This document shows, piece after piece, positions 28,916 to 34,035 of a stretch of DNA of 64,000 nt. Under the pieces are notes generated by a model. The model had not been told where the DNA came from, ran no database searches, and saw only the letters and a program-made list of their open reading frames with translations. The DNA is from Pedobacter sp. AJM. Lineage in GTDB: Bacteria; Bacteroidota; Bacteroidia; Sphingobacteriales; Sphingobacteriaceae. The first letter of the stretch is position 1. Each line of letters starts with the position of its first letter. Both the position numbers and the translations under genes were made by a program. The DNA lies in assembly GCF_002197755.1 (NCBI RefSeq), contig NZ_NHOT01000001.1:806001-870000 (forward strand), given 5' to 3'.

Positions 28916-29284
28916 TTAGAAAGGCAAATCATCATCTTCACCTGGCGCATTGCTCACATCAACCGGAGCTGCATATGCCGGAGCAGCAGCTGGCTGTGCA
29001 CCAGCAGCAACCGCATTGATTCTCCAGATCACAAGGCTGTTAAAATAAGATGTTTTACCTGTTTTGTCTGTCCATGGGCGGCCACGTAAATTAAAGAAAA
29101 CCTCAACCTCATCGCCCGCTTTAAATGTATCTAATAATGCAGTTTTATCTTGTAAAGCCTCAAAACGGATATATTCTGGGTATGTTGGATTTTCTGCGTA
29201 TTCTACTATTAAATCACGTTTTTTAAACGTTTCACTCACTTGCTGCGTTGCACCTACTTCGTGTACTTTTCCTTTAATTTCCAT
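28916..29284 (-). CDS. DUF3127 domain protein
   Basis: A 122-residue protein, taking ATG 29284 (MEIKGKVHEVGATQQVS); the frame continues upstream to 29317 but MEIKGK is the normal family start. The fold appears OB-like: ERDLIVEYAENPTYPEYIRFEALQ-type strands, a phenylalanine-rich VEVFFNLRGRPWTDKTGK segment and a final NSLVIWRINAV, followed by an Ala/Pro-rich linker and an acidic tail ending DDDLPF. The acidic tail with terminal Phe resembles single-stranded-DNA-binding-protein tails, an observation only. The gene is isolated, with its own terminator. Function is unknown. Confidence 0.85.
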   Translation of the reverse strand: MEIKGKVHEVGATQQVSETFKKRDLIVEYAENPTYPEYIRFEALQDKTALLDTFKAGDEVEVFFNLRGRPWTDKTGKTSYFNSLVIWRINAVAAGAQPAAAPAYAAPVDVSNAPGEDDDLPF

Positions 29285-29352
29285 AACTAATACTAATAAT
29301 GTACGTATAAAAGCCAAATCTCTATAATTTTATTGATAACTTCGCATATATT

Positions 29353-31890: not shown

Positions 31891-31973
31891 TTCACAACTT
31901 CAATTTCTTTTCTTTTATTCCACAACAGAGTAAGCTTAGTTATTCAAATTACTAATAAAATTAGCTTTATCAC

Positions 31974-31998: not shown

Positions 31999-33255
31999 AT
32001 GTCTGACCGAATTCGTGAAAAGTTAAATATCCTGGCCGATGCGGCAAAGTATGATGTTTCGTGTTCATCAAGCGGAGGCACCCGTAAAAATGACAATAAA
32101 GGTATTGGTAACAGTCATACTTCAGGTATTTGTCATACCTATACAGAAGATGGGCGTTGCGTTTCCCTTTTAAAAATCCTGTTAACCAATCACTGTATCT
32201 ATGACTGTTTATTTTGTGTTTCGAGAAAGAGCAATGACATTAAGCGAGCTGCCTTTACTGTAGATGAAGTGGTGGATTTAACCATGAACTTTTACCGCAG
32301 AAATTATATCGAAGGTTTATTTCTGAGTTCAGGTATTTTTAAAAATGCAGATTTTACCATGGAACGGTTACTGTTGGTTTGCAAAAAACTTCGTTTAGAG
32401 CAAAGTTATAATGGTTATATTCATTTAAAGACCATTCCAGGGGCCAGTGATGAATTGATAAAGGAAGCCGGCCTATATGCCGATCGCATGAGTATCAATT
32501 TGGAAATGCCTACCGAAGCAGGGCTGAAGCTCTTAGCGCCCGAAAAGAGCCATGCGGATGTGATCAAACCTTTGGGATTTGTACAGCAAAATATTGTTCA
32601 GTTTGCTGAAGATAAAAAATTAATTAAGCATGTACCTAAATTTGTTCCCGCAGGCCAGAGTACGCAAATGGTGATTGGTGCCACGCCTGAAAGTGATAAA
32701 GATATTATGTATACGGCTAATGCTTTTTACAAAAACTTCTCTTTAAAAAGGGTTTATTATTCTGGCTATGTGCCCATTAGCAATGATAGCAGGATGCCCG
32801 TTTTAGGAACCCAGCCACCCTTGCTCAGGGAAAACAGGTTATACCAAACCGATTGGCTGATGCGGTTTTATGGCTTTAAAGTTCAGGAAATTCTAAATGA
32901 TGCCAACCCAAATCTGGACGTAGACATCGACCCGAAACTCAGCTGGGCCATCAGAAATATGCAGCATTTCCCGGTAGATATCAATAAGGCAGATTACAGG
33001 ATGATCCTCCGAATTCCGGGTATTGGTGTCATGTCTGCGAAAAAAATTGTACAGGCCAGAAAGTTTGGGAAATTAAGAATTGATCAGCTGAAGAAAATAG
33101 GCGTGGCGTATAACAGGGCTAAGCATTTTATAACTTGTGCAGATAGTCCTTATCAATTAAAAGATTATCAGGGCACGCAGATCAAGGCCTTTATCATGGC
33201 CGATAGTCAAAGCAAATACCTCAAAACAGATAACAATCAGCTCATTTTATTTTAG
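31999..33255 (+). CDS. Putative DNA modification/repair radical SAM protein (TIGR03916-like)
   Basis: A 418-residue radical SAM enzyme. The cluster motif is CIYDCLFC with Cys66, Cys70 and Cys73; three more cysteines upstream (22, 45, 54; KYDVSCSSSGG and GICHTYTEDGRC) are typical of this family and might bind a second metal. Residues about 80-310 form the TIM-barrel core. The C-terminal 100 residues contain a helix-hairpin-helix element (DINKADYRMILRIPGIGVMS), a common DNA-binding module. The family travels with a DUF4130 partner gene, present here 15 bp downstream. The reaction is unknown; DNA-base repair or modification is inferred from HhH and partner. Confidence 0.9.
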   Translation: MSDRIREKLNILADAAKYDVSCSSSGGTRKNDNKGIGNSHTSGICHTYTEDGRCVSLLKILLTNHCIYDCLFCVSRKSNDIKRAAFTVDEVVDLTMNFYRRNYIEGLFLSSGIFKNADFTMERLLLVCKKLRLEQSYNGYIHLKTIPGASDELIKEAGLYADRMSINLEMPTEAGLKLLAPEKSHADVIKPLGFVQQNIVQFAEDKKLIKHVPKFVPAGQSTQMVIGATPESDKDIMYTANAFYKNFSLKRVYYSGYVPISNDSRMPVLGTQPPLLRENRLYQTDWLMRFYGFKVQEILNDANPNLDVDIDPKLSWAIRNMQHFPVDINKADYRMILRIPGIGVMSAKKIVQARKFGKLRIDQLKKIGVAYNRAKHFITCADSPYQLKDYQGTQIKAFIMADSQSKYLKTDNNQLILF

Positions 33256-33270
33256 TGAATTAAAAAGACT

Positions 33271-34035
33271 ATGATTTACACCTTCGATGGCTCTCTTTCT
33301 GGTTTGCTAACCGCAGTGTTCGAATGGTTTGAACGGAAACCCGGGCATATCAAGTTACAATTGAGCGATATTTTTCAGCCCGATGCTTTTACGGAATCGT
33401 TTGAGGTGATCACCAATGAAGAGAAAGCAGATCGCGTATGGAAAGGCCTTCAAAAAAAGCTGAAGAAAGACTGGCAGAGAACTTTTTATTGTAGCTATTT
33501 ATCTGAAATTCCCGAAGCTTACAACCATCTTTTTCAGTTTGCCCTGTACATTTTTGAAAGCGCAGATGGTGCATCAGCCAATTTCGGGAATGATCATGTA
33601 ATTGCTTTATCCAAATACGCTAAAAGCGTGGAAAGGGAAAAGCACCGGATGGAAGCCTTTATCAGGTTTCAAAAAACGGCCGACGGCAGGTTTTACACAT
33701 CAATTGATCCTGATTTTAATGTTTTGCCCCTGATTTCGAATCATTTTAAAAATCGCTATGCCGATCAGCAGTGGATTATTTACGATTTGAAACGAAAATA
33801 TGGCCTTCATTACGATTTAAATGCAGTTGAAGAAGTAACCATCAATTTTTCTGATGGTGCAAAAACCCCAAACCCTTCCCCTGCATTAATGGATGAAAAA
33901 GAAGAACTTTACGCTATTTTATGGAAAGACTATTTTAAAAGTGCCAATATTGTCGCACGGAAAAACACCAAATTACACCTGCAACATGTACCCAAAAGAT
34001 ATTGGAAGTATTTAACCGAAAAGCAGCTGGCTTAA
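33271..34035 (+). CDS. DUF4130 putative DNA metabolism protein (TIGR03915-like)
   Basis: A 254-residue protein of the family that accompanies the preceding radical SAM enzyme. It opens with YTFDGSLSGLLTAVFEWF and has the RMEAFIRFQKTADGRFYTSIDPDF stretch and C-terminal HLQHVPKRYWKYLTEKQ, all DUF4130 hallmarks. In some actinobacterial proteins DUF4130 is fused to a UdgX-type uracil-DNA-binding domain, which supports a DNA-repair link. It is co-transcribed with the radical SAM gene (15-bp gap). Its biochemical activity is not known. The next gene, a sensor kinase, begins 33 bp later and may be in the same transcript. Confidence 0.9.
   Translation: MIYTFDGSLSGLLTAVFEWFERKPGHIKLQLSDIFQPDAFTESFEVITNEEKADRVWKGLQKKLKKDWQRTFYCSYLSEIPEAYNHLFQFALYIFESADGASANFGNDHVIALSKYAKSVEREKHRMEAFIRFQKTADGRFYTSIDPDFNVLPLISNHFKNRYADQQWIIYDLKRKYGLHYDLNAVEEVTINFSDGAKTPNPSPALMDEKEELYAILWKDYFKSANIVARKNTKLHLQHVPKRYWKYLTEKQLA

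Follow-up and report, generated by a model that had tools for sequence, protein, structure and literature searches.

A radical SAM/DUF4130 gene pair of Pedobacter as a candidate SOS-controlled, clamp-tethered enzyme for damaged DNA

We analysed a 64,000-nucleotide stretch of the genome of Pedobacter sp. AJM (the window), in which two intact open reading frames (ORFs), separated by a 15-bp gap (33256-33270), encode a radical S-adenosylmethionine (SAM) protein, here called the rSAM protein, and a DUF4130 protein. The rSAM gene comes first and the DUF4130 gene lies next to it, as in most of the relatives read. The features of the locus, all on the plus strand, are the following.

31952-31964, plus strand: CTAATAAAATTAG, identical at every fixed position to CTAA-N5-TTAG, the LexA (SOS) box of Bacteroidetes; its first base is 47 bp upstream of the rSAM start codon
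31999-33255, plus strand: ORF1, rSAM protein of 418 aa, family TIGR03916 (rSAM_link_UDG), from NCBIfam and Pfam Radical_SAM
32062-32160, plus strand: span with the extra cysteines C22, C45 and C54 and with H46, which may bind a second metal centre
32194-32217, plus strand: C66xxxC70xxC73, the [4Fe-4S] motif of the rSAM protein, read from the sequence
32971-33096, plus strand: helix-hairpin-helix (HHH) domain HHH_3, residues 325-366 of the rSAM protein, from Pfam
33238-33252, plus strand: QLILF, residues 414-418 of the rSAM protein, a candidate sliding-clamp-binding motif (CBM), from conservation and the CBM rule
33271-34035, plus strand: ORF2, DUF4130 protein of 254 aa, family TIGR03915, from NCBIfam and Pfam DUF4130
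33901-34020, plus strand: C-terminal arm of the DUF4130 protein, residues 211-250, highly conserved and proposed as the element that docks on the rSAM protein, from conservation and models

Profile searches placed both proteins in named families. The rSAM protein scored 678.3 bits against TIGR03916 (cut-off 343.5), with residues 5-416 aligned to positions 1-413 of the 415 in the profile, and the DUF4130 protein scored 263.4 bits against TIGR03915 (SAM_7_link_chp; cut-off 112.25) and 169.7 bits against Pfam DUF4130 (cut-off 27); Pfam matches on the pair comprised Radical_SAM, HHH_3 and DUF4130. NCBIfam names both families as putative DNA modification/repair, and its comment for TIGR03916 presumably remarks on the pairing with the DUF4130 family and on fusions to uracil-DNA glycosylases (UDGs). 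Scoring far above both cut-offs, with the genes adjacent and the rSAM gene first, the pair is unremarkable within these known but uncharacterised families, apart from lacking a UdgX domain. Among named genomes, the closest rSAM protein was that of P. psychrotolerans (98%). Sequence searches of the PDB returned only HHH-level and weak matches, and known RNA families and tRNAs gave no match in the window at default thresholds. The legend of a figure published in 2013 already noted a link with SplB-like rSAM proteins and UDGs (PMC3765255); an established chemistry or substrate was not found in the literature searched, which left subscription papers and preprints largely outside.

We explored the partnership of the two families in 198 Bacteroidota and 299 Pseudomonadota genomes, which are related to one another, so that the counts are not independent events. 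In Bacteroidota, the rSAM protein was present in 62 genomes (60 over the cut-off, plus G052 with the match in two pieces and G060 with a partial one), DUF4130 in 62 and both in 60, whereas the corresponding numbers in Pseudomonadota were 53, 56 and 53, a DUF4130 remnant in G272 being left out; genomes whose only rSAM matches were short and below the cut-off (47 in Bacteroidota, 13 in Pseudomonadota) were not counted. DUF4130 accompanied the rSAM protein in 113 of 115 genomes, and in the two with the rSAM gene only (G024 and G121) this gene lies at a contig end, with the partner side off the contig. On these counts, DUF4130 appears to be an almost obligatory partner of the rSAM protein. In G178 the pair is split between two contigs, and one or more genes stand between its members at six loci (three Hymenobacter, two Chryseobacterium and one metagenome-assembled Bacteroidetes genome with an unassigned 376-aa ORF). 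At the Hymenobacter loci (L117, L118 and L123) the separating gene is alpha/beta-hydrolase-like by eye; the intervening genes of Hymenobacter and Chryseobacterium were considered as parts of the module and rejected, as they appear unrelated by eye (alpha/beta hydrolase-like, toxin-antitoxin-like). The rSAM proteins of Acinetobacter, Psychrobacter and Brachymonas (L056, L079, L081, L120 and L121) are 60-69% identical to that of the window, and those at the other Proteobacterial loci read are mostly 47-54% identical; the former may have been transferred from Bacteroidota. The rSAM gene was also found on 158 of 72,556 plasmid records, including 58 from Phaeobacter.

The cysteines of the rSAM protein are strictly conserved. 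C22, C45, H46, C54, C66, C70 and C73 did not vary in any of the 143 distinct complete relatives compared (the 144 found, less the frameshifted copy L022), which are not independent of each other; because of this invariance the six cysteines are not a chance occurrence. Together with a partial TIM barrel, the CxxxCxxC motif gives the protein the features of the radical SAM superfamily, in which the cluster cleaves SAM to give a 5'-deoxyadenosyl radical. As for the three extra cysteines, they may serve as ligands of a second metal centre or as a hydrogen donor. A plasmid-encoded Gemmatirosa protein (L059) keeps CxxxCxxC and has QLSLW near its end; by our reading it lacks the three N-terminal cysteines, and no DUF4130 was seen among the neighbouring ORFs. 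This suggests, on the basis of one outgroup sequence (a renewed plasmid search gave the same 158 records), that the extra cysteines go together with the DUF4130 partner. The HHH_3 domain passed its cut-off narrowly (27.9 against 27 bits), and the region also matched the ComEA-related chain 2duy_A (E 0.0051). An original prediction, made from the letters of the window without database searches, had described two genes 15 bp apart, a CxxxCxxC cluster at Cys66/70/73, three additional N-terminal cysteines, a C-terminal HHH and a DUF4130 protein encoded second, and each of these points holds.

Folds related to the rSAM part were those of HydE, lipoyl synthase, biotin synthase and viperin (Z up to 11.7), with viperin as the top Foldseek match of the barrel. 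Lipoyl synthases aligned from the N-terminus onwards (model residues 1-4 to 289-290, Z 9.9 to 11.5).

The rSAM protein ends in QLILF. Bacterial CBMs follow the rule Gln, aliphatic, free, Leu or Met, Phe or Leu (PMC11139829), and the tail pattern of the family fits this rule: column entropies at residues 414-418 were 0.00, 0.44, 3.18, 0.49 and 0.56 bits, so that positions 1, 2, 4 and 5 are conserved and position 3 is free, while the linker before the tail is variable (2.92 bits over residues 381-413). The loose motif Q[LMFI]x[LMIF] lay within the last 25 residues in 140 of 143 relatives versus 28 of 1223 other complete ORFs of the same loci (six-frame ORFs, some of them spurious); QLxL lay within the last 20 residues in 124 of 143 versus 6 of 1223, and QLxLF was found in 93 of 143 versus 0 of 1223. 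The glutamine was present in all 143 relatives. The three without the loose motif end in QGDLF, QGSLF and QYSIDW, the first two resembling accepted variants, and none of 116 DUF4130 ORFs had a clamp-type end. From this conservation we infer that QLILF is a consensus-type sliding-clamp-binding motif, through which the protein would bind the clamp. The beta-clamp clients Pol IV, Pol V and Pol II likewise carry a terminal QLxLF-type motif after a variable linker; the window protein differs from them in being a radical SAM protein, and a radical SAM clamp client was not found in the literature searched.

We also explored the upstream regions of the relatives, here with the frameshifted copy retained (144 loci). 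The motif CTAA-N5-TTAG has two matches in the window, and at least two occurred in 37 of 100 shuffles. Within 200 bp upstream of the gene it was found in 22 of 144 relatives versus 59 of 7200 random windows (0.8%). GGA-N5-TCC was found upstream in 12 of 144, always in three or four copies, with at least one copy in 313 of 7200 random windows, and the direct repeat GTTC/GAAC-N7, the LexA motif of Alphaproteobacteria (PMC8565304), in 30 of 144 versus 109 of 7200 control windows. Twenty-six of these 30 loci fall within the 32 loci of the Pseudomonadota search plus the plasmids L055 and L058, and in 19 of the 26 the repeat lies 20-22 bp before the start. One of the three motifs was present in 64 of 144 relatives, and the same operon would seem to have been taken up by different LexA dialects. 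LexA control of the operon is a published prediction, and the box in the window is new: a 'COG1573-COG4277' repair operon has been predicted to be LexA-controlled via CTAA-N5-TTAG and GGA-N5-TCC (PMC8565304), and the Clostridium acetobutylicum pair CAC3343-CAC3344 is a predicted LexA target (PMC3828012). Moreover, an Acinetobacter homologue was up-regulated on desiccation (PMC13130816). We infer SOS induction in the window organism from these motifs. As a means of finding the regulon, the LexA motif by itself failed and was set aside: 13 of 15 fetched sites lie near an ORF of at least 60 aa, and only the rSAM gene looks repair-like by eye.

Among the most strongly conserved positions of the DUF4130 protein are R132, F133, P147, R162, W218, R230, N232 and P241, each at 100% and all in the second half, in an alignment of 117 rows (116 collected sequences plus the window) that is mostly Bacteroidota because most of the UdgX-fused forms did not align over their full length. 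Its model, built on a 55-sequence alignment, had a predicted local distance difference test score (pLDDT) of 89.4 and a predicted template modelling score (pTM) of 0.82. Foldseek returned no match at E 0.001 or better; its first PDB matches included a PAP phosphatase (E 0.003, probability 1.00), the PF0399 DHH domain and a pGpG phosphodiesterase, and a BFVD search gave many DHH phosphohydrolases, none at E ≤0.001. VIA-align placed PAP phosphatase at Z 8.9, RecJ at 8.0 and RecJ-Cdc45 at 7.0, values below 8 possibly reflecting merely a common arrangement; the PAP phosphatase and RecJ matches cover 191-212 residues at a root-mean-square deviation of 5.5-9.0 A. The rows shown with Z ≥5 were PAP phosphatase, RecJ, RecJ2, RecJ-Cdc45, a DHH domain, and CMG-helicase or related chains, which we take to be Cdc45.

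DHH membership by sequence was rejected. By hhalign the probability against NrnA and RecJ was about 0, by eye the protein has no DHH or DxD motif, and no DHH family stood among the 25 Pfam families listed, of 37, for 55 DUF4130 members. Asp6 alone looks like motif I, and, as far as we read their N-termini, the UdgX-fused forms do not share it. Resembling the DHH phosphoesterases RecJ, Cdc45 and NrnA in predicted fold but different from them in profile, motif and Asp6, the model is one that we read as a DHH-like fold in which catalysis was lost or never present, as in Cdc45, and not as a DHH member.

Since the two frames are in register, the pair was modelled as one read-through chain of 678 residues, with an artificial short linker (pLDDT 80.0, pTM 0.78, 53 other rows in the alignment). 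Many barrel-fold alignments run from residues 39-56 to 647-678, i.e. into the C-terminal arm of DUF4130, while those of lipoyl synthase and some others end at 289-290. The pLDDT of the arm was 60-64 in DUF4130 alone (residues 221-250) and 71-84 in the joint model (residues 641-670; 65 for 671-678). Both observations hint that the arm would pack against the rSAM barrel. The N-terminus and cluster loop of the rSAM part are of low confidence in this model.

Taken together, these data lead us to favour, by a modest degree over doubt, the reading of the pair as an SOS-induced, clamp-tethered, two-subunit radical SAM enzyme acting on damaged DNA. Damage would lift the repression that a LexA-type regulator exerts at the box upstream of the rSAM gene; the clamp-binding tail would deliver the rSAM subunit to replication or repair sites, and the HHH domain would hold it on DNA. 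DUF4130, with its predicted RecJ/Cdc45-like fold and no DHH motif, more likely grips the DNA or the lesion than cuts DNA, and its conserved arm would close the rSAM active site, in which the 5'-deoxyadenosyl radical would act on the damaged nucleotide in place, with the three extra cysteines perhaps holding a second cluster or supplying a hydrogen atom. In many Proteobacteria, UdgX would additionally tether the complex covalently at a deaminated cytosine. The LexA-type box, the clamp-type motif, the HHH domain and the invariant cysteines lend support to the DNA-damage role put forward in the original prediction, to which the QLILF motif, the upstream box and the NCBIfam names of both families are additions. 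Its description of the pair as undescribed stands for substrate and chemistry, within the literature searched, and falls for the families, both of which are named. The clamp-type tail, the DHH-like partner and a UdgX-independent state in Bacteroidota were not found in the same literature.

Several findings weigh against this reading. The exact LexA box occurs at 67 sites in the genome (210 for the backwards control), which makes it weak by itself, and none of the 14 other CTAA-N5-TTAG sites fetched precedes a recognisable repair gene. None of the three LexA-type motifs was present in 80 of 144 relatives (one of them the frameshifted copy), including Flavobacterium, Chryseobacterium, Bacteroidales, Acinetobacter, Psychrobacter, Lachnospira and Fusobacterium loci; Bacteroidetes LexA types have been reported absent in Bacteroidales (PMC8565304). 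The clamp motif is short, the DHH likeness of DUF4130 is at fold level only, and pLDDT was 56-73 over rSAM residues 1-40 and 49-53 over residues 61-80, the cluster loop. DUF4130 also occurs without the rSAM protein in 5 of 118 genomes (G033, G134, where it is truncated, G401, G418 and G488), and no rSAM gene was found in the 6-8 kb around it at these five loci (in G401, the contig ends 1.2 kb from DUF4130); given these genomes, DUF4130 can have another use.

UdgX crosslinks to DNA via its R-loop histidine (PMC10776899, PMC10359453), and the original prediction had linked the pair to it through fusions in other bacteria. This link holds for the relatives: many Pseudomonadota have a DUF4130-UdgX fusion next to an rSAM gene of this family, and motif A (GEQPG) and the crosslinking histidine were kept in 34 of 34 fused rows from 31 genomes or records (one row, L193, being from the genome with the DUF4130 remnant). 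It does not extend to the window genome, in which the fused domain is missing and no TIGR03914 match was found at E 0.001. Counting only UDG matches over the TIGR03914 cut-off, UdgX was present in 0 of 198 Bacteroidota genomes, 146 of which have a weaker UDG match, and in 51 of 299 Pseudomonadota genomes, 39 with the rSAM protein and 12 without; 12 of 12 Bacteroidota family-4-type UDGs have no R-loop. Caulobacter vibrioides, included as a control, scored over the cut-offs of the rSAM, DUF4130 and UdgX families alike. By this distribution, UdgX is an add-on to the rSAM/DUF4130 pair, and since the Bacteroidota carriers have no UdgX, the core chemistry should not depend on it.

Some rSAM-less genomes have UdgX genes. 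Full-length DUF4130-UdgX fusions occur in two genomes without an rSAM match (L254 in G418 and L256 in G401), and UdgX genes in three others (L187, L189 and L193 in G256, G252 and G272, respectively). The UdgX domain of G272 immediately follows what is left of a DUF4130 gene, interrupted by a TGA, which gives the impression that the partner was lost.

Other explanations of the pair were weighed against the same evidence. The enzyme might resolve or re-use protein-DNA or abasic-site adducts, namely the bond between the UdgX histidine and C1' or, in Bacteroidota, other abasic or crosslinked sugars. Such a function would suit the retention of GEQPG and the R-loop histidine, the UdgX found in 39 of the 53 rSAM-bearing Pseudomonadota genomes, and the state of knowledge on UdgX, whose physiological role is described as largely unknown and for the resolution of whose adduct RecA pathways or proteases have been proposed (PMC10359453). 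We nevertheless regard it as unlikely, as UdgX over the cut-off is missing from all Bacteroidota, 62 of which have the rSAM protein, and 12 Pseudomonadota genomes have UdgX and no rSAM protein. Direct reversal of a UV thymine dimer, in the manner of spore photoproduct lyase (SPL), which the original prediction had used as an analogy, is suggested by the combination of radical SAM, a DNA-binding-type domain and LexA-type boxes. It fits poorly with the carriers Bacteroides, Parabacteroides, Alistipes, Lachnospira eligens and Fusobacterium, which we take to be gut or oral anaerobes with little UV exposure, and these speak against UV dimers as the main lesion. SPL was not among the 50 best folds shown for the rSAM part, and no SPL model was among the 12 NCBIfam matches, the content of SPL models in that library being unchecked. 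An earlier paper associated SplB-like radical SAM photolyases with DUF4130 (PMC3765255), while SplB (COG1533) is listed as a separate SOS gene in Bacteroidetes LexA regulons (PMC8565304), and we hold dimer reversal to be very unlikely. SplB is likewise a radical SAM enzyme tied to DNA repair and SOS control; the window family has an HHH domain, a clamp-type tail, three further invariant cysteines and a DUF4130 partner.

A role in DNA modification, with sulfur or methyl insertion into a base and a lipoyl-synthase-like second cluster, draws on the three invariant cysteines upstream of the radical SAM cysteines and on the lipoyl synthase alignments from the N-terminus; as the N-terminus is of low confidence in the model, no fourth cluster ligand was identified, and LexA-type control and a clamp tether suit repair better than constitutive modification, we give this role little credence. 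An RNA, protein or metabolite substrate, with the DNA features being incidental, is quite improbable: the superfamily is chemically diverse, and HydE, lipoyl synthase, biotin synthase and viperin are closest in structure, but the clamp motif, the HHH domain, the LexA-type boxes and the UdgX fusions all indicate DNA. Viperin as the top Foldseek match, together with rSAM genes on the 158 plasmid records and on 10 of 50,697 phage records, could point to a viperin-like, nucleotide-directed antiviral factor or a mobile defence gene. PADLOC matched neither protein, the seven flanking genes scanned have Pfam matches of which none is defence-related, 142 of the 158 plasmids are typed non-mobilizable, and a pattern-based scan of 2.9 million IMG/VR contigs found relatives in only two, so that we consider a defence function exceedingly improbable.

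In the phage collection, DUF4130 was found in 11 records, and the 10 records with the rSAM gene were two of 'Acinetobacter phage MD-2021a' and eight unannotated faecal 'Bacteriophage sp.' entries; DUF4130 was also found in Bacteroides phage BKO1-TP1, as a partial match at the very end of the 46,246-base record (PQ571268.1, 45690-46232; H66). The pair is carried by both 'Acinetobacter phage MD-2021a' records (240 kb; L060, CAKLQF020000004.1, and H73, CAKLQH020000003.1). In L060 it sits among glyQS, aroE and other chromosomal genes, and this one record looks like a bacterial contig labelled as phage. A viral origin of the pair was rejected, given the two IMG/VR relatives and the bacterial appearance of the Acinetobacter record L060; some phages, such as those behind the faecal entries, may nevertheless carry it. 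Elsewhere in the window, positions 28919-29317 on the minus strand encode a DUF3127 protein with the C-terminus GEDDDLPF, which presumably resembles the acidic tip of single-stranded-DNA-binding protein.

Returning to the SOS-induced, clamp-tethered enzyme, a more far-reaching version can be put forward only tentatively, being more likely wrong than right: the pair would constitute a hitherto unrecognised, replication-coupled repair branch, in which an SOS-controlled clamp-client radical SAM enzyme and a Cdc45/RecJ-like pseudo-nuclease reverse or resolve damage to a base or sugar in place, with UdgX as a Proteobacterial covalent targeting device. If this is true, UdgX would gain its missing physiological role, and the DUF4130-UdgX fusions offer a route to its purpose.

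The pair is widespread, with the rSAM protein encoded by 53 of the 299 Pseudomonadota genomes and 62 of the 198 genomes of Bacteroidota, and LexA-type boxes precede it in several groups. What had been labelled 'putative DNA modification/repair' can now be put to specific tests at the bench, owing to its clamp-type tail, extra invariant cysteines and DHH-like partner. A sliding-clamp-tethered radical SAM enzyme, if true, would be a new way of DNA repair.

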